This document shows, piece by piece, positions 25,954 through 37,708 of a DNA stretch of 37,708 bases (its first letter is position 1; each line of letters opens with the position of its first letter). The DNA is from Caldithrix sp. Its GTDB lineage: Bacteria; Zhuqueibacterota; Zhuqueibacteria; Oceanimicrobiales; Oceanimicrobiaceae. The translations under genes were made by a program, and so were the position numbers. The stretch is taken from assembly GCA_004356825.1 (NCBI GenBank), contig SMXC01000039.1, forward strand, positions 1-37,708, in the 5' to 3' direction. Under the pieces are notes generated by a model. The model was not told the origin of the DNA, searched no databases, and saw nothing but the letters and a program-made list of their open reading frames with translations.

Positions 25954-26610
25954 ATGAAATTCTGCAGCCAAAATCTCCCTATCCTGAGCTTCTGCTTTCT
26001 GGTGGTTATTCTTGGTACTGCCCGCAATTCTTCTGCTTTGCAAATTGCACCTCTGGATTCCAATAAAACTTTTGCGGTCTCAATTATTCAACAAGAAATG
26101 ACGATCGAGGAGCTCGAAGCTGCTGCCAGGAAACTACACAAATCAGCAACCAAGAAATTTAAGCGGGAAGCGTATTGGACCAGTTCGGTTGATTTGATTG
26201 CGGTTCTCGATTTTCATCCCGGGTTTACCAGATCCGATGAAATAACCTATCTACTGGCAAATTGTTTTTACGAAATGGGGATGTATGAAAGCGCAGATAA
26301 GATGCTGCGGCATTTGCTTAAAACCTATTCGAAAACTCTTTTGGTAGCAGAGGCCATTCTTGGATTGCAAAAGATTTGGTATCAAAAAAATGATTACCAG
26401 ACAAGTTTGAAATTTTACAAAGCTCTTGAGTCGCATTACTCCGATCAAAATGGAATTGATGAGTCGCGGTACTATGCCGGACAAACTTATTTTCAACTGG
26501 AAGAATACAATCTGTCGTTAAGTATTCTGAGCCGAATCAAACAAAAGAGCGATTTTTATCCATTTGGGTTGTATACAATCGGACTGATGAACCTAAAAAA
26601 AAAAACATAA
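25954..26610 (+). CDS. Exported TPR protein, N-terminal part (frame lost in a poly-A run)
   Basis: 218 residues with a signal peptide (LPILSFCFLVVILGTARNSSA). From residue 45 helical repeats of TPR type begin (EITYLLANCFYEMGMYESADKML, AEAILGLQKIWYQKNDYQTSLKFY, DESRYYAGQTYFQLEEYNLSLSIL). The frame ends artificially at LMNLKKKT-stop where an 11-base A run (26595-26605) occurs. Adding one A gives LMNLKKKNIREALTNFITVTQ and continues into the piece ending at 27353, making one protein of about 466 residues. Periplasmic; by position a structural part of the ExbB/ExbD-linked complex. Confidence 0.75.
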   Translation: MKFCSQNLPILSFCFLVVILGTARNSSALQIAPLDSNKTFAVSIIQQEMTIEELEAAARKLHKSATKKFKREAYWTSSVDLIAVLDFHPGFTRSDEITYLLANCFYEMGMYESADKMLRHLLKTYSKTLLVAEAILGLQKIWYQKNDYQTSLKFYKALESHYSDQNGIDESRYYAGQTYFQLEEYNLSLSILSRIKQKSDFYPFGLYTIGLMNLKKKT

Positions 26611-27353
26611 GAGAAGCCTTAACCAACTTCATAACCGTCACACAGGCTTCTGTAAAGACCCCCGAACGGCGGGAATTAGTTAATGCTGCCCGGTTGACAA
26701 CGGGTTATATTTATTTTGAATTATCAAGCCACCAAAAAGCACTAAAACTTTTACGGGCTATTCCATCTGAATTTTATGATTATCCGGAAGTGCTTTTAGC
26801 TATTGGATGGTCGGCGTTAAAGTTACAGGATTATCAGGCTGTACTTAGCGCACTCAGAAGGCTTGTGATAAATTATCCAAATTACTTTAATTTGGAAGAA
26901 GCTCATTTTGTAATTGGTCAATGTTATTTGAAACTCGGATATTATGATTTTGCCATAAAAGAGTACAACGAAATAACTAAGAAAAAGCCAAAACCAATTG
27001 ATTACTCAGCCAGGCTTGAGCAAACGAACCAGGAGTTGGCGATTCAAGGAAAACTTTTGGAAGAACTGAGTTCGGAGCTAATTGTCTTAGAAGCGCGGCT
27101 TCTACTTGAAAAGACGCTCACCGCAAGCAACGGCTCAATCGATTTTGTCTCGGTAGACGAAAGGGAGATGCAGAAGAAAAGCCAGGCTTTAAATGAAACC
27201 CTGGTGCAAGAACGCCAAAATCTGGATATTCTTAAAAATGCTTTATTAGATTTGAAAAAGCAGATTGAAAAAGACCAAATCTACAAGGACTGGCGGGCTT
27301 ATGCAGACTATGGCAAAGCCAGGGCTCTTTTTTTGAAAAGTGTCCCTCAATAA
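26607..27353 (+). CDS. C-terminal part of the frameshifted TPR protein
   Basis: Open frame one base off from the N-terminal part. It begins IREALTNFITVTQASVKTPERRELVNAARL and carries more TPR-like repeats (TTGYIYFELSSHQKALKLLR, LLAIGWSALKLQDYQAVLSAL, AHFVIGQCYLKLGYYDFAIKEY), then a long coiled coil (about 27020-27290) and a short end. There is no start codon with a Shine-Dalgarno sequence near the junction. Independent translation is therefore unlikely; it belongs to the gene starting at 25954. Transcriptional slippage on the 11-A tract could restore the frame in a fraction of transcripts. Confidence 0.7.
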   Translation: MREALTNFITVTQASVKTPERRELVNAARLTTGYIYFELSSHQKALKLLRAIPSEFYDYPEVLLAIGWSALKLQDYQAVLSALRRLVINYPNYFNLEEAHFVIGQCYLKLGYYDFAIKEYNEITKKKPKPIDYSARLEQTNQELAIQGKLLEELSSELIVLEARLLLEKTLTASNGSIDFVSVDEREMQKKSQALNETLVQERQNLDILKNALLDLKKQIEKDQIYKDWRAYADYGKARALFLKSVPQ

Positions 27354-27464: not shown

Positions 27465-30335
27465 ATGATACTAAAAAATCATAAAATCCTGGGTGTGGGT
27501 TGCCTGATTTTGAGCTTCGTTTTTTCTTTTTCCACTTTGCATAGTCAGGAATCTCCCGGCCATGACATCAAGCAGTTCCGTAATCTAACTGAAGCGATTA
27601 AAGGTTCTGAGGAGTTGCTTGCAAAATATCGCGACAGCGATTTTACTCCGAACGTGATGTTTCAGCTGGTCGAGCTTTATGCAAAACGGTCGGTTCTAAA
27701 ATTCCAGCGTGAAATGCTGGTTTTTGAACAAGCCGAGAACAATTTTGAAAGAGGTCTTCTGAAAACGGAACCAAACCTGCCCCGAATCGATTACAGCGCT
27801 GCTATTAAACTGGCTGCTGAACTGCTGCAAAAATTCCCCAATGTCGGCTTTCGCGACAAAGTCATATACCGAATTGCCTATTGCCAGCTTGAAACGGGAA
27901 ATGGCAAAAAGGCCATGGAGTATTTTGATCAGCTCGCCGAGGAAACAAACGACAAGCAGTTGCTCGAGGAATCCTATTTTCGATTGGGCGAGCACTATTT
28001 TGAAACAAAAGCATATGATAAAGCGGTCGTTTATTACGATCGTCTCTTGAGCAGTTGGGACAGCCCTTACTTTGATATGGCGCTATACAAATTGGGGTGG
28101 TGCTATTACAACGTCGACGATTTTTCTCAATCTATCGGAACATTTTTATTTTTGATTGAGGATTCGAAATTATTAGAGCGTCTTGAAACCGAACTGGGAA
28201 AAACAAAAGCTGACCTACGCGATGAAGCGATCAAGAACATCTCCATCAATTTTGCTGAGTTTGGCGGCGCTGCCAAGGCTGGTGAATTTTTAAAGGAATA
28301 TAAAGATAAGGATTTTACAGAAGAAATACTGCAGCATCTGGCGGAGATTTTCAAAAAACGAAATTTTTATGAAGAGGCTGTTGAAACTTTGAATGTTCTT
28401 ATTGGCTTTTATCCGTATAAACCAAAGTCGGCAATAGCCCAGAAAGCAATTGTTGATAATTATGAGTTGGCTGGTGAAAAGGGGAGGGCGGACGTAGAAC
28501 GGGCAAAATTAGTCGACCAGTATGGGCCGGGCAGTCCATGGTTAAAGCAAATTCCAGCGGGCAAAGTTCGGCAGGAAATTTTAGGGATTGCTGAGGAATT
28601 CTTGTACACCCTCGGTTCTGAAGCACATGAAAGAGCGCGGCAATCTGCAAACAGTGTCGCAAGTTATGAACTTGCGATCATTAAATACAAGGAATTTATT
28701 GAGAAATTTGAATTTTCAGATAGAGCTCAAAAAGTACAATTTTACCTGGCGGAGTGTTTTTACGAAACCGGAAAGTTCAGAGAGGCCGCCGAATCTTACT
28801 ATGACGTAATCTTGAAATATCCCAATTCGGAATTACGAGAAATATCAGCATACAATCAAGTGCTCGCTTATGATCATCTCCTGCAAAAAGATACGGTCAT
28901 CGATTCGACGGAATTCCATCTATTTAATTTTCTGGGTAAAGGGAAAACTCAAAAAGACACTTTAAATGTTCTAAATAGCAACCAGGCACAGTTGCTGCAA
29001 GCCTGCAATGATTTTTATTTATTTCATTCCGAGAGTCCCAACCTCCCCGAGGTTTTAATGAATTATGCTCAAATTCTTTACGAACTTGAATATATCCCCC
29101 TGGCAAGGGAAGTCTACCAAAAAGTCGTTGAGCATTCACCTGCCAATCCTATGTTGCCACAGGCCTATATGATGATGGCACAGTGTGATTTTAAACAAGA
29201 ATATTACTTGGAAGCGGACTTGTTATTCCAAAATGTTGTCAAATTATTTCCGGATTCTTCACGATATGTTTCCAAAGCAAACAAAATGATTGCCTCGTCG
29301 AGATTTAAAAATGCGGAGATGCATTTGCAAAAAGGGGACAGTACTCTCGCTGCTCAGGAGTTCGAGAAGATTTCGACTTTAACCGCGGATCCTGCAATCG
29401 CAGAACAGGCTCTATTCGAAGCTGCTCTGCAATACGAAAATATCGGTCGTAAAAATAAATCGGTTGAACTTTACGAAATGATGTCGCTGCAATTTCCCGG
29501 GTCTCATCTTATTGATGAATCTTTCTTTAAAGCTGGCGTTTTAAGCGAAGAGTTGGAAAATTGGCAGCGGGCTGCTACGAACTATCTAGCCTTGTTTAAG
29601 CACGATCCTAACTCCAGATACGCTTCAAGAAGTCTGTTTTTTGCGGCAAAATGTTATGAAACCGCTGGTGATTTGAGTAAAGCAAGAACCTATTTTCAAG
29701 AATATATTATCAATTACGCGGTTGATCCCGATCGTTATGTAGAAGCCGCTTTTAGACGAGGCGAAATCGCTTATAATCAAAATTCGCTTGAAACAGCTCT
29801 AAAAGATTTTCAGTTTGTGATCGATGCGCATCAGAAATTTGTTGAGCAAAATATTTCTATCGAAAGTTACGTTCCGGCCAACGCACAGTTCCTAATCGCT
29901 GAAATTTTTTTCAAATCCTTTGACAAAATCAAACTGAAACCTCCTCTTAAACGGAATCTCAAACGTAAGAGGTCGGCTTTTGCAAAAGTCATCAAAGCCT
30001 ACACAGAAGCTGCTAAATTTAAGGTCGCGGATTGGACAACAGCGTCTTCCTATAAAATTGGCGTGACCTTTGAAGCGTTCGCCGATGCCGTGTTTAAATC
30101 ACCGCGTCCCAGGAATTTATCCGACGAAGATTTAAACAAATATGATGATAAATTATGGGAAACGGTTGTTCCCTTTAAAGAAAAAGCGCTGGAAACCTAT
30201 CGGGCAAACTTGAAACAGGCCGTGGAAAACAGCATTGAAAATAATTGGGTTTTGCAGAGTAGGAAACGAGTAGAGGCTTTAGTGAACGAGCTAGGGCTTG
30301 CGCAGGTAAAATTAAGTCAGAAGGGCGGCTCATGA
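27465..30335 (+). CDS. Large periplasmic TPR protein
   Basis: 956 residues with a signal peptide (GVGCLILSFVFSFSTLHSQ). Almost the whole length is TPR-type helical repeats, for example DKVIYRIAYCQLETGNGKKAMEYF, LEESYFRLGEHYFETKAYDKAVVYY, DMALYKLGWCYYNVDDFSQSIGTF, VQFYLAECFYETGKFREAAESYY and RSLFFAAKCYETAGDLSKARTYF. The repeat style (S-x-F/Y-x-L-A/G near A-C-Y-E) is that of YbgF/BamD-like and Glt-type periplasmic scaffolds. Its stop overlaps the start of the next gene (ATGA at 30332). By context a scaffold of the ExbB/ExbD-driven complex, comparable to the TPR subunits of the Myxococcus Glt machinery; that role is inference. Confidence 0.85.
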   Translation: MILKNHKILGVGCLILSFVFSFSTLHSQESPGHDIKQFRNLTEAIKGSEELLAKYRDSDFTPNVMFQLVELYAKRSVLKFQREMLVFEQAENNFERGLLKTEPNLPRIDYSAAIKLAAELLQKFPNVGFRDKVIYRIAYCQLETGNGKKAMEYFDQLAEETNDKQLLEESYFRLGEHYFETKAYDKAVVYYDRLLSSWDSPYFDMALYKLGWCYYNVDDFSQSIGTFLFLIEDSKLLERLETELGKTKADLRDEAIKNISINFAEFGGAAKAGEFLKEYKDKDFTEEILQHLAEIFKKRNFYEEAVETLNVLIGFYPYKPKSAIAQKAIVDNYELAGEKGRADVERAKLVDQYGPGSPWLKQIPAGKVRQEILGIAEEFLYTLGSEAHERARQSANSVASYELAIIKYKEFIEKFEFSDRAQKVQFYLAECFYETGKFREAAESYYDVILKYPNSELREISAYNQVLAYDHLLQKDTVIDSTEFHLFNFLGKGKTQKDTLNVLNSNQAQLLQACNDFYLFHSESPNLPEVLMNYAQILYELEYIPLAREVYQKVVEHSPANPMLPQAYMMMAQCDFKQEYYLEADLLFQNVVKLFPDSSRYVSKANKMIASSRFKNAEMHLQKGDSTLAAQEFEKISTLTADPAIAEQALFEAALQYENIGRKNKSVELYEMMSLQFPGSHLIDESFFKAGVLSEELENWQRAATNYLALFKHDPNSRYASRSLFFAAKCYETAGDLSKARTYFQEYIINYAVDPDRYVEAAFRRGEIAYNQNSLETALKDFQFVIDAHQKFVEQNISIESYVPANAQFLIAEIFFKSFDKIKLKPPLKRNLKRKRSAFAKVIKAYTEAAKFKVADWTTASSYKIGVTFEAFADAVFKSPRPRNLSDEDLNKYDDKLWETVVPFKEKALETYRANLKQAVENSIENNWVLQSRKRVEALVNELGLAQVKLSQKGGS

Positions 30336-30673
30336 GCGGACAGTCATTACAAATAAAACTGATAGTAATTTCTATTTTCATGTTGATTGCTTTTTGGGCG
30401 GTGCCGGTTGTTGCCCAGGAAAGCGTCAGCGTAAAACGGGACAGTATTCAAAAAGTCGTTGCTCTCGAATTGAAAACAAAGAAATCAGATGTGAAAATAT
30501 TTCTCGATAAAATTGAAATTTTGGGGAGAATAGAAAAACCGCAGACCGTGTTTATCATCCCGGGCAAAAATCCGATAGTCGACGATATTCTAATCGATCG
30601 CTCGTTTTTTAGAGAAATTTTCCGCACGATTGAAATCGATCAAATTCGTAAAGAGATAGAAGATAGAAGATAG
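30332..30673 (+). CDS. Small exported protein of unknown function
   Basis: 113 residues. Start ATG 30332 overlaps the previous stop. A hydrophobic signal (LIVISIFMLIAFWAVPVVAQ) precedes a beta-rich domain of about 75 residues (VALELKTKKSDVKIFLDKIEILGRIEKPQTVFIIPGKNPIVDD), then a helix RSFFREIFRTIEIDQIR. The mature domain looks like a periplasmic adaptor. No family recognised. It sits between the TPR scaffold and the TolQ/ExbB gene and is probably part of the same complex. The stop codon lies inside a 7-bp tandem repeat (30655-30689), so repeat-number change would alter the C-terminus. Confidence 0.75.
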   Translation: MSGQSLQIKLIVISIFMLIAFWAVPVVAQESVSVKRDSIQKVVALELKTKKSDVKIFLDKIEILGRIEKPQTVFIIPGKNPIVDDILIDRSFFREIFRTIEIDQIRKEIEDRR

Positions 30674-30754: not shown

Positions 30755-31378
30755 TTGGAGTACATTAATATTGCCTTTAAAACCGGGGGACCTTTTATGT
30801 ACATCATCCTGGCTACTTTGATCATTGGTCTGGCAATTATCATTGAGAGATTTATTTTTATCAATATAAAGAACCGCATTGATACAACCAAATTTGTTAA
30901 TAAAATAATCGAATTCATCCAGAGCGGAAAGGTGTCGAGCGCGGTTGACCTGTGTAGGATTTCCAACGCCGCCCTGCCGACCATTACCAAAGCCGGGTTG
31001 CAGGAATACAACAAAGGGCCCAAGGAGATTCAAAGCGCTTTCGAACTGGCGGCAATGTCTGAAATTCCAAAGCTGGAAAAACGCACTCATTATCTTTCGA
31101 TGATCGCCAATGTCGCGACTCTGCTGGGACTGCTCGGGACCATTGTCGGTTTAATTCAATCCTTTCAGGCTGTAGCTGGTGCTGATTCGTCTCAAAAAGC
31201 GGCGCTGCTTTCCGCAGGTATCTCCGTTGCTATGAACACGACCGCGTTTGGTTTGATGGTCGCAATTCCCAGTATGGTTTTCCACTCTTATATTCAATCG
31301 AAAACCAATTCGATTATCGATGAGATCAATGAAAACATTGCCCGGATTTACCAACGTCTCATTAGCTCGAAGGCCTGA
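30755..31378 (+). CDS. MotA/TolQ/ExbB proton channel family protein
   Basis: 207 residues. TTG 30755 is the start: AGGAGG (30743-30748) is ideally placed and there is no ATG before the first helix. Three membrane helices: residues 14-36 (YIILATLIIGLAIIIERFIF), about 117-140 (VATLLGLLGTIVGLIQSF) and 150-175 (ISVAMNTTAFGLMVAIPSMVF). The family signature LLGLLGTIVGLIQSF and the A-M-N-T-T-A-F-G-L motif with channel Thr residues are intact. Forms the pentameric stator around two ExbD-type helices and couples proton flow to work in the periplasm. Two different ExbD genes follow directly (3 bp and 3 bp gaps). Confidence 0.95.
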   Translation: MEYINIAFKTGGPFMYIILATLIIGLAIIIERFIFINIKNRIDTTKFVNKIIEFIQSGKVSSAVDLCRISNAALPTITKAGLQEYNKGPKEIQSAFELAAMSEIPKLEKRTHYLSMIANVATLLGLLGTIVGLIQSFQAVAGADSSQKAALLSAGISVAMNTTAFGLMVAIPSMVFHSYIQSKTNSIIDEINENIARIYQRLISSKA

Positions 31379-31380
31379 TT

Positions 31381-31836
31381 ATGAATCTGAAAAAAAACCT
31401 GCATCGAGAAAGCCGCTACGAGGAAAATGAGCTCAATATTACTCCGGTGATGAACATATTCCTGATCTTAGTGCCATTCCTGCTATTGACGGCGGTGTTT
31501 GTGAGAATATCAATTCTTGAGTTTTCACTTCCGACCTCCACTCAGGCTGGTGAAGCGCAAAAATCACAAAAGAATCTTGTGGTTACAATCTTGGCAATTT
31601 CCGAAAAGGGCTTCGAGTTAACAACCAAGGGGATGAAAATCCCTTTCATTGAAAAAAAAGAAAATAATTTTGACTTTCAAACTCTTGTTGACAAACTAAA
31701 AAAAATCAAAAAAACGCACGTGCAAACGGAAGATATTATTTTGGCGCCGCATGTTTCGACTAAATATGATACGATCATCAAAGTCATGGATCGCTGCCGG
31801 GAGAATGGCTTTTTTAATATTTCAATTTCAGGTTAA
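31381..31836 (+). CDS. ExbD/TolR family protein, Asp-to-Asn variant
   Basis: 151 residues: a short cytoplasmic N-terminus (ESRYEENELNITP), one membrane helix (about 22-44) and a periplasmic domain with the ExbD-type strand/helix order ending DRCRENGFFNISISG. In ExbD/TolR the helix begins TPLIDV with an essential proton-carrying Asp (Asp25 in E. coli ExbD). Here the sequence is ITPVMN25IFLILVPF, with codon AAC at 31453-31455. The subunit therefore cannot carry the proton at that position. The second ExbD gene has the Asp, so the pair probably works as a heterodimer inside the ExbB-like pentamer. RGD-like sorting signals absent. Confidence 0.9.
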   Translation: MNLKKNLHRESRYEENELNITPVMNIFLILVPFLLLTAVFVRISILEFSLPTSTQAGEAQKSQKNLVVTILAISEKGFELTTKGMKIPFIEKKENNFDFQTLVDKLKKIKKTHVQTEDIILAPHVSTKYDTIIKVMDRCRENGFFNISISG

Positions 31837-31838
31837 AA

Positions 31839-32363
31839 ATGTACTTCAATTTTGAAGAAGATAACGAGCATTTATTTGTCGTTAAACCCCGAAGGTCGAA
31901 GTCGATCAGTGCCTTTACTTTGCGATTGACCGCCATGATCGATATGTTTACGATTCTCTTGGTTTTCCTCCTGAAGAGCTTTTCTGTGGAAGGCGAAATC
32001 ATGAGCGTGGCTCAGGATTTACGCCTCCCGGAATCTACCGCCCAGACTCCCCCCAAAGCCGCCCCAATTTTGGTGGTGACCAATGAATGGATTATTCTGG
32101 ACGGCACGCCGGTCGAGAGAGTCGAGACCGTGCTAACTCAGCGGGACAACATGATCAATTCTCTGAAAATACAACTTCAGCAAATTCGCGCCTTTTCCGA
32201 AAGCCTGGGGCAATTGAACGCCAAGATGCGCTTCAAGGGAAACATCGCCATCCAGGGAGATAAGGAAATTTCATTTGGACTTTTAAAGAAGATTATGTTC
32301 ACCTGCGGTCAGGTGGGGTTTAATGATATGTTGTTAGTGGTAAATCAGGCGGAAGAAAGTTAA
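31839..32363 (+). CDS. ExbD/TolR family protein with canonical Asp
   Basis: 174 residues. The N-terminal cytoplasmic part is longer and basic (VVKPRRSKSISAF). The membrane helix LRLTAMID35MFTILLVFLLKSF has the proton-binding Asp (GAT at 31941-31943) in the expected place. The periplasmic domain carries an insert with a coiled-coil stretch (QRDNMINSLKIQLQQIRAFSESLGQL) before the usual FKGNIAIQGDKEISFGLLKKIM and terminal GFNDMLLVV. Three bases after the first ExbD and eight before the FHA protein, so the stator genes are co-expressed. Together with the Asn-type partner it would form an asymmetric ExbD dimer. Confidence 0.92.
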   Translation: MYFNFEEDNEHLFVVKPRRSKSISAFTLRLTAMIDMFTILLVFLLKSFSVEGEIMSVAQDLRLPESTAQTPPKAAPILVVTNEWIILDGTPVERVETVLTQRDNMINSLKIQLQQIRAFSESLGQLNAKMRFKGNIAIQGDKEISFGLLKKIMFTCGQVGFNDMLLVVNQAEES

Positions 32364-32370
32364 AATTTTA

Positions 32371-33687
32371 ATGGCAAAATCGGTTAAACAACTTCTGGTA
32401 AAAATAGAGCAGTCCGGTAAAGTTACCCACCGTCGGTTGAGAAAACGGGACCGCCTGACCATTGGCCAGCATCCCAACAACGATGTGACCATTTACGGTG
32501 AACATTTCCCCAAACGCCATGCCTTGTTTTCGAGAAAAAATAATCACTTCCAGCTGAATCTAAATAAGCATATGCGGGGAGAAGTTCATGCCGGGAAATC
32601 ACGTTTATCTTTCCATGATATGATCGCCCATCATTTGCTTCCCCTAAATAAAGATGGTTTTACTTATCCAATTACAGTGGGTAAAAAGGGGTTCATTGTC
32701 GCCGGCGATGCTAAAATTACGTTTCAATTTGTTGAAGGGGTTCCGGAAGCGGCACAATCGCTGCCAAAATTCAACGGCTATTCATGGACCTATGCGACCT
32801 TTAAGGATTTGGGTCGCGACCTACCCTTTAAAATCATCTTGATTCTAATGATCGTTTTGCATGCTTTCATTTTAAGATACATGAATACGTTGCCAACCGA
32901 TATCAGGCCTCAAGTTAATGCAAGCAAGATTCCTGAGCGGCTGGCAAGAATTATCGTCAAAAACAGACCAGTCAGGTTTGAAGAAGAGGATTCTAACGCG
33001 AGAAGAGGTCGCGAAGGCGCAGAAGAAACTGATATTGAGAGCAAAGCCCAAAAAGGCGATGGGGCTCCAGTCGAAAGGCAGGGACTTCTTGGCTTGCTTA
33101 CCGGCATCGGTGGAACGGGTCAGTCCAGTCCACTGGCCGATTTTTTACTGGACAAAGGCCTCGTGAAAGAACTGGACGAAGTGATGTCAACCACCGCTCT
33201 TCAAATTGGCAGGAATCCCGGCAACGGCAAAGCAGGCGATGATTTAAACGACCTGATTGCAGCGAGTGAGGCCGGTGGCGGCATTGAAGATATTCTCGGG
33301 GACGTCGATCAGGTTGAATCAGTGTCATTTGGCGAAAAAGGCCGGATTAGCGTCGATAGAATTGGCAGCATGACCGGCAGCGGCACTGGCCTCGGCAGAC
33401 GCTCCGAAGATTCAGTGCGGAAGGTCATGCTGAACTACACCGGAAGGTTGACTTATATTTACAACAAGTATTTGAAGCGCCAGCCTGACCTGGGCGGCAA
33501 AATAGTGGTTGAAGTTGTAATTGCCGCCAGTGGTGCTGTTTCGAGTGTGAAGCTTATTTCTTCGAGTTTGAACAAACCCGAGTTCGAACGCGAGATTTTG
33601 CGCTTCGTCCGCAGGTGGAAGTATGAAGCCATAGACGAAGGAACAGTGACGGTGACTTATCCGCTGGTTTTTAATAAGATCAGCTAA
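32371..33687 (+). CDS. FHA-domain / TonB C-terminal protein (AgmX/PglI, GltG-like)
   Basis: 438 residues in three parts. Cytoplasmic residues 1-122 form an FHA-like fold: RLTIGQHPNNDVTI, FPKRHALFSRKNNHFQL. The usual pThr-contacting Arg (GR) is Gln and the Ser of SxxH is Pro, so phosphopeptide binding may be lost. A single membrane helix at 152-171 (PFKIILILMIVLHAFILRY) has His164, like the TonB helix. PERLARIIVKN follows, then a Gly-rich flexible periplasmic linker, and a TonB C-terminal domain at about 345-438 (VRKVMLNYTGRLTYIYNKYL, GKIVVEVVIAASGAV, EREILRFVRRWKY, TVTYPLVF). This is the layout of the Myxococcus gliding proteins GltG/PglI and GltJ/AgmX. It would carry force from the ExbB-ExbD stator across the periplasm. 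Confidence 0.88.
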   Translation: MAKSVKQLLVKIEQSGKVTHRRLRKRDRLTIGQHPNNDVTIYGEHFPKRHALFSRKNNHFQLNLNKHMRGEVHAGKSRLSFHDMIAHHLLPLNKDGFTYPITVGKKGFIVAGDAKITFQFVEGVPEAAQSLPKFNGYSWTYATFKDLGRDLPFKIILILMIVLHAFILRYMNTLPTDIRPQVNASKIPERLARIIVKNRPVRFEEEDSNARRGREGAEETDIESKAQKGDGAPVERQGLLGLLTGIGGTGQSSPLADFLLDKGLVKELDEVMSTTALQIGRNPGNGKAGDDLNDLIAASEAGGGIEDILGDVDQVESVSFGEKGRISVDRIGSMTGSGTGLGRRSEDSVRKVMLNYTGRLTYIYNKYLKRQPDLGGKIVVEVVIAASGAVSSVKLISSSLNKPEFEREILRFVRRWKYEAIDEGTVTVTYPLVFNKIS

Positions 33688-34485: not shown

Positions 34486-35061
34486 ATGAATCATGACGAA
34501 AAAGCTTTAATCAAAGAAGCCCAGAGGGGCAATATTTTGGCATTTGAATCGCTTGTAAAAAATTATGACAGGCATGTTTTGCAGCTTGCTTACAACATGG
34601 TGAATAACGCTCAGGACGCGGAAGATATCTACCAGGAAGTGTTGGTGCGGGTTTATAAAAACCTGCATCGGTTTGAATTCAAGAGCGAGTTTTCTACCTG
34701 GCTTTACCGGATCGTAGTGAATTATTGCATAAATTTTAATAAAAAGAGACGTCGTCTTAAAGCTTATTCTATTGACAAGGAGTTTCAAAATGGCGATGAA
34801 AACTGGGAAAAAACTGTCAGGTCTGAAGAGCAAAACCCGGAGGAGTATTTTCTGAATGTGGAATTATCCAGGGAAATCGAAACAGCTTTGCAACAGTTAT
34901 CACCTAAGCAAAAAACTGTTTTTATACTGCGCCACTATCATGGGCATAAACTTAAAAAAATTGCTGGTATAATAAAATGCTCGGAAGGGACGGTTAAAAA
35001 TTATCTTTTTCGGGCGACCCAAAAAATGCAGCGGCAGTTAAAGGAATATTCAAGCATTTAA
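34486..35061 (+). CDS. ECF-type RNA polymerase sigma factor
   Basis: 191 residues, normal ECF size. Region 2 (about 24-90): FESLVKNYDRHVLQLAYNMV, DAEDIYQEVLVRVYKNLHRF, FSTWLYRIVVNYCINFNKKRRR, which binds core and the -10 element. Region 4 (about 135-188): LQQLSPKQKTVFILRHYHGHKLKKIA, then CSEGTVKNYLFRATQKMQ, the -35 helix-turn-helix. The next gene, 10 bases downstream, encodes a zinc anti-sigma factor, so this is a classic sigma/anti-sigma pair. The likely targets include its own operon with the DUF4097 proteins. Start ATG 34486 lacks a Shine-Dalgarno sequence. Confidence 0.93.
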   Translation: MNHDEKALIKEAQRGNILAFESLVKNYDRHVLQLAYNMVNNAQDAEDIYQEVLVRVYKNLHRFEFKSEFSTWLYRIVVNYCINFNKKRRRLKAYSIDKEFQNGDENWEKTVRSEEQNPEEYFLNVELSREIETALQQLSPKQKTVFILRHYHGHKLKKIAGIIKCSEGTVKNYLFRATQKMQRQLKEYSSI

Positions 35062-35071
35062 AGGAAGTATT

Positions 35072-36049
35072 ATGAAACAAAGCGACCACTTAGAGCAACA
35101 GATTCCTCTTTATCTCTACGGCGAGTTAGAGAAAGTAAAGAAGGAGGAGTTTGAGGTGCATCTTAACTCATGCCAACATTGTCGGGAACAATTGGAAGAA
35201 ACGCGCGCCTTGCATAATACTCTGAGTAAAAAAGCAAGTTTTGAACCTTCCGAACCTCTGATGTCAAAATTGCGAAGCGAGTTGCGGGAGCGTCTGCGCG
35301 AGGAGCGCAAGGACGAATTTAAACAAAGTTGGTGGGAAAGATTTTCAGAAAAAATTTCTGAACGAGGTGGCGGGATGCAACTGGCTGGAGCACTCGCCTT
35401 CTTGATTGTTGGTATTCTAATCGACCGGGTTGTTTTTTTACCAGCTAACACAGGGACTCAATTAGAAGGAGAATTTACCGCTGAGGTGCAGGACGAAAGT
35501 AGTTTGCCGTTTATGTCGAGCGTCGATTTAATTCAATATGATCCGAAGTCGGGGAATATTACTGTGCAGTATAAAAGCATCCAGGATGTTTCGCTGCGGG
35601 GAAATGTTCAGGATCCGTCAATTCGTAAAGTGCTGGCACACGCAATTCGGATGGAGGAGCACCCGGGACTCCGCTTGGCTGCGGTGAAAGCCTCTGGTGC
35701 AAAATCTTTTTCAGACGAAGAGCTCGAAGATGCGCTCATTTACGCGATGAAAAATGATGAAATCGACGGAGTTCGTCTGAAAGCGGCTAAAGTCTTAACG
35801 AATTTGCCTATTAATGAAAAAATAAAAAGAGCCTTCATTCGCGTTCTAATAAGAGACGCAAATTCAGCTATTCGAATCGAAGCCTTGAATGCTTTGAGTG
35901 GAATCAAAGGTGAGGCGGACGTTCGTCCTATTTTCCGGAATGCTTCGCAGGATGATGAGAACGAATTCGTTCGCTTGCAAGCATCCAAAGCACTGGAAAG
36001 ATTAGAGAACCCTAACATTCAAAACATCAAAAATCGGCAAAGGAGATAA
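35072..36049 (+). CDS. Zinc-finger anti-sigma factor fused to HEAT repeats
   Basis: 325 residues with AAGGAAG before ATG 35072. The N-terminal zinc anti-sigma domain shows H30LNSC34QHC37 (HxxxCxxC) after IPLYLYGEL, and holds the ECF factor at the inner face of the membrane. One membrane helix at 102-123 (MQLAGALAFLIVGILIDRVV). The periplasmic part, about 185-320, consists of HEAT-type repeats: RKVLAHAIRMEEHPGLRLAAVKAS, DALIYAMKNDEIDGVRLKAAKVL, RAFIRVLIRDANSAIRIEALNAL, RPIFRNASQDDENEFVRLQASKAL. HEAT repeats would provide a protein-binding sensor surface in the periplasm. Ligand unknown. The next gene begins four bases after its stop. Confidence 0.92.
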   Translation: MKQSDHLEQQIPLYLYGELEKVKKEEFEVHLNSCQHCREQLEETRALHNTLSKKASFEPSEPLMSKLRSELRERLREERKDEFKQSWWERFSEKISERGGGMQLAGALAFLIVGILIDRVVFLPANTGTQLEGEFTAEVQDESSLPFMSSVDLIQYDPKSGNITVQYKSIQDVSLRGNVQDPSIRKVLAHAIRMEEHPGLRLAAVKASGAKSFSDEELEDALIYAMKNDEIDGVRLKAAKVLTNLPINEKIKRAFIRVLIRDANSAIRIEALNALSGIKGEADVRPIFRNASQDDENEFVRLQASKALERLENPNIQNIKNRQRR

Positions 36050-36052
36050 ACA

Positions 36053-37327
36053 ATGAAAAAACGTTCGGCACATTTAATGCTTTTAATCTTGGCAATTTTC
36101 TTAACGACTTCTGTATTTGCGCAAGAGCTTACAAAACGTGGCAGGTATTATGTTGCGGAGATAACGAAAACCTTTAAAGTAGAGGAGGGGGGTAAATTAA
36201 TTATTGATGATGTGCGCGGGGACATTCGGGTTACGACCTGGGACAAAAAAGAGGTTTTCGTAAAAGAGTTGAAGAGAATGGATGTTTATACTGAGGAGGA
36301 AGCCAGGACCGTTCTTGAAAAGTCCAAGTCAAGTTATCGGCAACGCGGAAATACCATTGAGATTGGCGGTGAATACTACTCGCGGGACTGGATCAAAAGT
36401 GAGTTTGATGTGATCGTGCCCAAGGTTTTTGAGGTTGACATCCAAACCCGGGGCGGCGATATCAGCGTCAGCCGATTAAAAGGCGAAGTGAGACTGAAAA
36501 CCTCAGGCGGTGATATCATTCTCGAGGAAATCGATGGCGAGGTAGATGCCCATACCTCAGGCGGTGACATCGAGGTGATTAATTCGACCAAAAGTGTTCG
36601 AATTAAAACTTCCGGCGGAGATATTGAGCTTGAGAATATCGGCGGACCATTAACTGCCAAAACTTCCGGTGGTAATATTGTGCTGAGAAATTCCAAAAGC
36701 CGGATGGATTTGCACACTTCAGGCGGAAGCATCGAAATTAAAGATGCCGGAGGGCATGTCAAAGCACACACCTCCGGCGGTGACATTGAAGTGATTAATA
36801 CTCAAGGGGATGTTGAAGTTCACACTTCAGGCGGCGATATCGACTTGCACAACATCGGCGGCAGGTTGGATGCCTCAACCTCGGGTGGAGATGTTAAAGG
36901 AGATATGATCGCTGGCAGTGTTAAGACGTCAACCTCCGGCGGCGACATTAATTTGAGAGATGTCAGGGGCGGTGTCGAAGCCAAAACCGCCGGCGGGGAT
37001 ATTTCAGTTGAAATTACTCTCGAGGATTTTGAAAAGAACCACGGTGTGGATTTGCACACAGCCGGTGGTGAGTTAGTTCTTTACATCCCGGAAAATTTAC
37101 CGGCGACCATTCGAGCCGAAATCAAAATTACGGATCGCTGGGATGATTACAATATTTATTCTGATTTTCCACTCACGACTACTGAGGATACCGGAGAAAA
37201 GCAAAGATCAAGACGGCATCGCAGAAGAAGATCGATTCGCAGTAAGGGGGATATTAATGGCGGCGGCGATCTTATTGAACTTTACACGGTAAATGGTGAC
37301 ATTCACATTAAAAAACTGAGAAAGTAG
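36053..37327 (+). CDS. Exported DUF4097-family repeat protein
   Basis: 424 residues. Signal peptide (MKKRSAHLMLLILAIFLTTSVFA). The N-terminal domain (30-125) has KTFKVEEGGKLIIDDVRGDI and the DVIVPKVFEVDIQTRGGDI entry typical of DUF4097. Residues 132 to about 330 hold eleven 18-residue repeats of T-S-G-G-D-I-x-[LV]-x-x-I-x-G-x-[VL]-x-[AI]-[KH], a right-handed beta-helix pattern; the repeat is visible in DNA as a 54-bp period (36446-37040). A basic patch (QRSRRHRRRRSIRSK) near the C-terminus precedes a last strand pair. Periplasmic or surface located. Encoded with an ECF/anti-sigma pair and followed by a second DUF4097 gene, so probably part of an envelope-stress output or sensor. Confidence 0.9.
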   Translation: MKKRSAHLMLLILAIFLTTSVFAQELTKRGRYYVAEITKTFKVEEGGKLIIDDVRGDIRVTTWDKKEVFVKELKRMDVYTEEEARTVLEKSKSSYRQRGNTIEIGGEYYSRDWIKSEFDVIVPKVFEVDIQTRGGDISVSRLKGEVRLKTSGGDIILEEIDGEVDAHTSGGDIEVINSTKSVRIKTSGGDIELENIGGPLTAKTSGGNIVLRNSKSRMDLHTSGGSIEIKDAGGHVKAHTSGGDIEVINTQGDVEVHTSGGDIDLHNIGGRLDASTSGGDVKGDMIAGSVKTSTSGGDINLRDVRGGVEAKTAGGDISVEITLEDFEKNHGVDLHTAGGELVLYIPENLPATIRAEIKITDRWDDYNIYSDFPLTTTEDTGEKQRSRRHRRRRSIRSKGDINGGGDLIELYTVNGDIHIKKLRK

Positions 37328-37339
37328 GTGGAGAAAATT

Positions 37340-37708
37340 ATGAAAAAATCCTATATTTTAATAAGCCTTTTTCTTGGCGGGCTGATTGTAAGTCAGGTAA
37401 ATGCGCGTGAATTTGAGCAGCGCATCGAGAAAAGCTTCAGAGTTAAAAAAGGCGGTACGCTTTATTTAGATTCAGACAAAGGGTCTGTCGAGGTTCGCAG
37501 CCATGCCGGAGAAAAAGTTAAAGTTCTGGTTTTCCTGGAAGCAGATGTGCGCAGTCAAGAGCAAGCCCAAGCTTGGTTTGACCGATTTGATATTCGTTTT
37601 GAGCATCGCGGCGAAGATGTCAAAATAATTGGCGAATGGCTTGATCGCCGGTCACACCGCAGGAATCGTCTGCATGTTCATTATGACATTCAAGTGCCTA
37701 AAGAGTAC
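37340..37708 (+). CDS. Second DUF4097-type exported protein, cut by the window end
   Basis: Starts at ATG 37340 with GGAG at 37329-37332 upstream, 12 bases after the previous stop; 123 codons are visible and the frame is open to the last base. The signal peptide is KKSYILISLFLGGLIVSQVNA. The following EFEQRIEKSFRVKKGGTLYLDSDKGSVEVRSHAGEKVKVLVFLEADV matches the DUF4097 N-terminal domain of its neighbour, and HYDIQVPKEY corresponds to FDVIVPKVF. The repeat part would follow beyond the window. Fifth visible feature of the sigma-factor operon; probably a paralogue of the gene at 36053. Confidence 0.88.
   Translation, partial: MKKSYILISLFLGGLIVSQVNAREFEQRIEKSFRVKKGGTLYLDSDKGSVEVRSHAGEKVKVLVFLEADVRSQEQAQAWFDRFDIRFEHRGEDVKIIGEWLDRRSHRRNRLHVHYDIQVPKEY

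Follow-up and report, generated by a model that had tools for sequence, protein, structure and literature searches.

The window analysed here, the whole stretch of 37,708 nucleotides, is contig 156 of a 4.36-Mb MAG whose closest named relatives are MAGs of candidate division KSB1. It hosts an operon in which one ring gene is followed by two adjoining ExbD paralogues, the arrangement of AglRQS-type motors. The features discussed below are:

25954..27353, + strand: TPR protein, the first of two that precede the motor genes (TPR_6/TPR_2 matches), whose frame breaks at the A11 tract of 26595-26605
27465..30335, + strand: exported TPR protein of 956 aa in a GltD/GltE-like gene position (TPR families), kept upstream of the motor in KSB1
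30332..30673, + strand: small exported protein of 113 aa in a GltF-like gene position, present in 55 loci
30755..31378, + strand: ring subunit of the ExbB/TolQ/AglR type (PF01618, 105.6 bits; alignment)
31381..31836, + strand: ExbD1, the Asn-type paralogue, in the AglQ position, 151 aa (PF02472, 81.8 bits; 54/54 Asn in the class; AF2/Foldseek match to TolR 5by4 and ExbD 8pek)
31453..31455, + strand: codon AAC of Asn25, at the essential-Asp position of ExbD1
31474..31476, + strand: codon CCA of Pro32 in ExbD1, which covaries with Asn25
31839..32363, + strand: ExbD2, the Asp-type paralogue, in the AglS position, 174 aa (PF02472, 47 bits; 53/53 Asp; groups with myxobacterial AglS-type proteins)
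31941..31943, + strand: codon GAT of Asp35 in ExbD2, the sole transmembrane carboxylate remaining in the axle pair
32371..33687, + strand: GltG-like force transducer with one TM helix and a TonB_C / AgmX-PglI C-terminus (NF033768; TonB_C)

The order of TPR protein, small exported protein, ExbB, Asn-type ExbD1, Asp-type ExbD2 and TonB_C/AgmX-type transducer is conserved in the KSB1 class. No match was found in Pfam or NCBIfam for the 113-aa exported protein. The transducer scores 85.5 bits against NF033768, the AgmX/PglI C-terminal domain (cut-off 40), and 73 bits against the GltG equivalog NF033760, whose cut-off is 650. Its N-terminus is weakly FHA-like, but the match (E 0.0057) is below the cut-off, so we do not assign an FHA domain to it.

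Some observations concern the flanks of the motor genes. The A11 tract is the only A or T homopolymer run of at least 9 in the window, and it splits the upstream TPR gene into two frames. The orthologue in a genome of the same genus (G010, locus L149) is likewise split at a poly-A tract, and that of G005 (L153) is split and has an A10 tract; the orthologues at L150-L152 and L154 are in frame. The tract is possibly a site of poly-A slippage, or else a frameshift or an assembly error. Downstream of the operon, as assigned by eye, the gene at 34486-35061 is sigma-factor-like and that at 35072-36049 is putatively anti-sigma-like, of the zinc-finger/HEAT kind; from 36053-37327 onward to the end of the window at 37708 there are exported proteins with regular HTSGGDI-type repeats.

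The two ExbD genes are as the original prediction described them, and both products belong to the ExbD/TolR family, with 81.8 and 47 bits against the PF02472 cut-off of 25.4. It had placed Asn25 where E. coli ExbD has Asp25, and a phmmer alignment to solved ExbD chains agrees, with Asn25 on the essential Asp of the TPFID motif. The sequence around Asn25 is NITPVMNIFLILVPFLLLTAVFVRI, and the transmembrane helix holds no acidic residue. Asp35 of the second protein, also part of the prediction, was read directly from its codon. The essential transmembrane Asp of ExbD/TolR proteins is absent from ExbD1 and present in ExbD2. In an AF2 model of ExbD1 (pLDDT 71) there is a single TM helix, 21-49, and Foldseek matches the predicted periplasmic fold to TolR (5by4, E 2.2e-5) and ExbD (8pek, E 2.1e-4). 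A model of ExbD1 and ExbD2 fused by read-through (pTM 0.57) folds the two domains well, with pLDDT mostly above 90 in each, and shows no readable interface.

Most genomes of the class have an orthologue of ExbD1. An alignment of homologous pairs, the check suggested with the original prediction, contains no class orthologue with Asp: position 25 is Asn in all 54 distinct proteins, at identities down to about 40%. Their ExbD2 partners have Asp in 53/53 same-operon cases, as does one further partner from a second operon. Asn25 and Pro32 are among the small set of columns that are invariant across the 54 orthologues, and the periplasmic residues M136, D137, C139 and R140 are conserved to the same degree as the helix. 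The Asn/Asp (N/D) pattern also holds for orthologues from genomes of the phylum that lie beyond the class (L125-L127). Judged from these alignments, the conservation of the pairing is almost certain.

The genome that hosts the window has seven ExbD matches. Two are the N/D pair described here and two form an Asp/Asp (D/D) pair on contig 187; the others are two Asp-type genes that stand singly and one N-type gene, with which contig 32 ends. The gene on contig 32 is part of a second, divergent N/D operon (G000:C32; L004, L067) with the order ExbB, Asn-type ExbD, Asp-type ExbD and TonB-like protein, which is cut by the contig end and is complete in a genome of the same genus (L072). This second operon spans most families of the phylum, several of them without the first.

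The Asn is part of a wider signature. In the ExbD1 set of 112 distinct proteins (86 with Asn, 2 with Ser and 24 with Asp, conventional ExbDs included), a Pro seven residues on (+7) is found in 88/88 Asn/Ser proteins and 0/24 Asp proteins, with a Fisher p of about 6e-25 when ancestry is ignored. The Asn codons are mixed, with 46 AAT and 40 AAC, which indicates codon drift under a preserved amino acid.

The ring subunit shares in this signature. On the basis of the motif, we take the relevant ring positions to be those of E. coli ExbB T148, E176 and T181. The ExbB of the window keeps Thr129 (31139-31141) and Thr163 (31241-31243), has Val158 (31226-31228) in place of the TM3 Glu of conventional ExbB, and carries Asn161 at 31235-31237. 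In the alignment the channel Thr equivalents of T148 and T181 are found in 107/107, an Asn three residues past the lost Glu in 87/107, and the TM3 Glu itself in 0/79 Asn/Ser operons vs 11/16 Asp operons. T148 and T181 are listed with D25 as shared residues of proton transport (PMC12965293; PMC6778125). The covariation of Asn, Pro and Glu is striking, yet it may reflect few events, since trees built from such short proteins have weak support: they would imply 4-5 changes of state, and one origin of the Asn is possible. The link between the Asn and the loss of the Glu is inseparable from shared ancestry, with one independent pair on supported branches.

A profile of ExbD1 was also searched over 388 genomes spread across the domain, and the loci were fetched and read; the search is biased to Asn-type proteins and therefore does not measure how common they are in two-ExbD operons as a whole. 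The Asn (rarely Ser) form occurs in 22 of these genomes, from 16 families outside the phylum (Asn at L089-L096, L098, L101, L102, L105-L110, L113, L115, L118 and L119; Ser at L111 and L112), which rules out that it is found only in KSB1. An Asp-type partner adjoins every one of these genes save that of L089, where no partner was recognised. The same search returned D/D pairs at L099, L100, L104, L114, L116 and L117, and no N/N pair was seen among the loci read. At L111 and L112, where Ser takes the Asp position, the Pro at +7 is still there. One genome, G114, holds both an N/D operon without the ring Glu (L096) and a D/D operon with it (L116). At L101 (4256-7716), in another phylum, two ExbB genes flank the ExbD pair and the transducer of an N/D operon.

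The original prediction set a local feature against E. coli ExbBD, a frame that proved too narrow: the Asn is widespread, and the apt comparison is with the two-ExbD motors of the AglRQS/Glt type. Our literature searches, which covered open-licence papers and are weak evidence of absence, found no description of Asn-type ExbD pairs. For the comparison we used G109, whose GltG scores 1033 bits, above the NCBIfam equivalog cut-off; it is therefore taken as a gliding myxobacterium, and its ring-ExbD-ExbD operon (L117) as AglRQS. Across 50 loci of its myxobacterial phylum, Asp is found in AglQ in 50/50 and in AglS in 49/49, and the TM3 Glu of AglR in 48/50; the AglR of these D/D motors likewise carries the ring Asn after the Glu position. 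In trees of these short proteins, which are weakly supported, the KSB1 ExbD2 groups with AglS and ExbD1 falls on the AglQ side. In Myxococcus xanthus, the AglQ D28N mutant has lost proton conductance and motility, and its machine is paralysed (PMC3858216). The fixed state of KSB1-type ExbD1 is thus the residue that kills the motor of its relative. According to a review, AglQ and AglS both carry Asp, and the choice between homo- and heterodimers is undecided in Myxococcus (PMC9389320).

On balance we lean towards the reading that the operon encodes a proton-driven 5:2 motor with a heterodimeric axle and one proton site, a natural variant of the AglRQS/Glt type. The heterodimer of ExbD1 and ExbD2 is the firmer part, and is quite probable. 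The axle would consist of two different proteins, with its single proton-binding Asp on ExbD2 and with ExbD1 as a fixed partner whose Asn (rarely Ser) is always neutral and whose helix is kinked by the Pro. The ring has kept both channel Thr and lost the TM3 Glu, which would leave the ExbD2 Asp as the one conserved titratable group in the region of the proton site. Each proton would load and unload this Asp, and the Asn helix would substitute for the protonated state. With one loading Asp and an Asn stand-in, the repeat would be one ring subunit, i.e. 72 degrees and 5 protons per turn, as against half a subunit, 36 degrees and 10 per turn. The GltG-like transducer and TPR/envelope partners would receive the force.

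Published cycles bear on this proposal from both sides. In the Santiveri model, rotation is permitted only with both sites neutral, and MotB D22N mimics protonation (both per PMC9389320). A permanent Asn would meet half of the both-neutral condition, such that protonation of the Asp could free a step and deprotonation could lock the axle, with a 72-degree repeat. Other points count against our reading. The turnstile cycle requires two alternating, proton-swapping sites, with 36 degrees per proton, and an entirely new model would be required for 5 ions per turn (PMC9389320). The D/D M. xanthus motor does not tolerate a single Asn, that of AglQ D28N (PMC3858216), the fused ExbD1-ExbD2 model shows no readable interface for a heterodimer, and the link of Asn to the lost Glu could stem from shared ancestry. 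One-proton-site stepping is, in our judgement, somewhat short of an even prospect. It is with similar caution that we suggest a widespread class of 5:2 motors with a heterodimeric axle, a single ion-binding carboxylate, 72-degree steps and 5 protons per turn, in which a different gear ratio would be reached by differentiation of the dimer. V-ATPase rings that have lost half their carboxylates are comparable in principle to a one-site axle.

Several other explanations have been considered. One is that the Asn is a local mutation, a sequencing error or a mark of a decaying duplicate, and its probability is negligible. Its presence in every class orthologue rules out error and local mutation, and mixed codons, invariance and an intact fold rule out a decaying duplicate. 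The original prediction had doubted decay, and that doubt is borne out by the invariant Asn, the covarying Pro32, the loss of the ExbB TM3 Glu, the Asp partner in every recognised pair, the recurrence across families (86 distinct proteins) and the predicted ExbD/TolR periplasmic fold. There is thus strong support for two paired ExbDs that share one protonatable site, and not for decay or error; the fixed heterodimer with an asymmetric stroke or halved proton use, which the prediction also put forward, is a hypothesis built on it. It is improbable that the two paralogues form separate homodimers, with D/D as the motor and with N/N competing for the ring as a complex that is inactive, regulatory or a plug. 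Although even for AglQ/AglS the dimer state is undecided (PMC9389320), the genes are strictly linked one to one within an operon that almost always has a single ExbB gene, and the loss of the ExbB Glu tracks the Asn partner, as though both meet one ring.

Two further explanations were weighed. The proton-carrying group may have moved to the ring or the transducer, as in GldLM, with the Asn of ExbD1 as part of an altered path and not simply a one-site motor. GldL E49 is a precedent (PMC8986121), and a ring Asn past the lost Glu is frequent; but the ExbD2 Asp and both ring Thr are invariant, the ring of N/D operons loses a carboxylate, and the same ring Asn occurs in D/D myxobacterial AglR, which makes this very unlikely. 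A better case, still an unlikely one though it fits the data, can be made for a heterodimer in which the Asn-type ExbD1 is a structural or docking subunit, its periplasmic domain bound to peptidoglycan or the GltG-like transducer, and the ExbD2 helix rocks or pistons without full rotation. The periplasmic residues M136, D137, C139 and R140 of ExbD1 are as conserved as its helix, the Pro at +7 should alter that helix, and structures have led to the proposal that ExbD helices move by translation (PMC6778125). Docking alone leaves unexplained why the residue is Asn and not any neutral one.

The reading that we prefer, a heterodimeric axle with one proton site, is of wider interest. Current 5:2 models assume that the two proton sites are equivalent and that a turn takes 10 ions, and the N/D operons, which look like natural one-site motors, challenge them. 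The N/D state is kept over large evolutionary distances and in many uncultured bacteria, at the position where a change from D to N kills the Myxococcus motor. With these operons one can ask if an axle needs its two sites, if pairs of the AglQ/AglS type must be heterodimers, and which published cycles can accommodate a partner that is permanently neutral.

Among known systems, the TPH-vWA/TolQ-like pairs share with KSB1 heterologous axle genes beside a TolQ-like ring, but an Asp is reported in each vWA monomer (PMC12204202), unlike in ExbD1. In GldLM, the 5:2 motor of type IX secretion, the two axle helices likewise do not both carry the essential carboxylate (PMC8986121). Its carboxylate is on the ring, whereas that of KSB1 is on one axle chain, and we claim no sequence relation. 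TonB-ExbB-ExbD and TolQ-TolR share the Pfam MotA_ExbB and ExbD families, the ring Thr, the Asp and the periplasmic fold. They have a single ExbD or TolR, and so an Asp on both axle helices where KSB1 has one; the NCBIfam equivalogs of the TonB system are not reached by ExbD1 (27.1 vs 152.95) or ExbB (45.8 vs 206.2).

The closest likeness is to AglRQS and Glt/Nfs of M. xanthus. Both have one TolQ-like ring gene, an identical order of the two ExbD paralogues, TPR proteins and a GltG-like transducer of the TonB_C/AgmX-PglI type. The parts list of that machinery comprises GltD/GltE (TPR), GltF (89 aa, exported), GltG (FHA, TonB) and AglRQS (PMC3169522). The gene content of the KSB1 operon resembles this list, the FHA and TPR matches being weak evidence of homology. 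The residues rule out that the two are the same: AglRQS has Asp in AglQ as in AglS and Glu in AglR TM3, whereas the KSB1 operon has an N/D pair with Pro at +7 and Val158 in place of the Glu. Unlike those of AglRQS, the KSB1 motor genes lie within the transducer operon.
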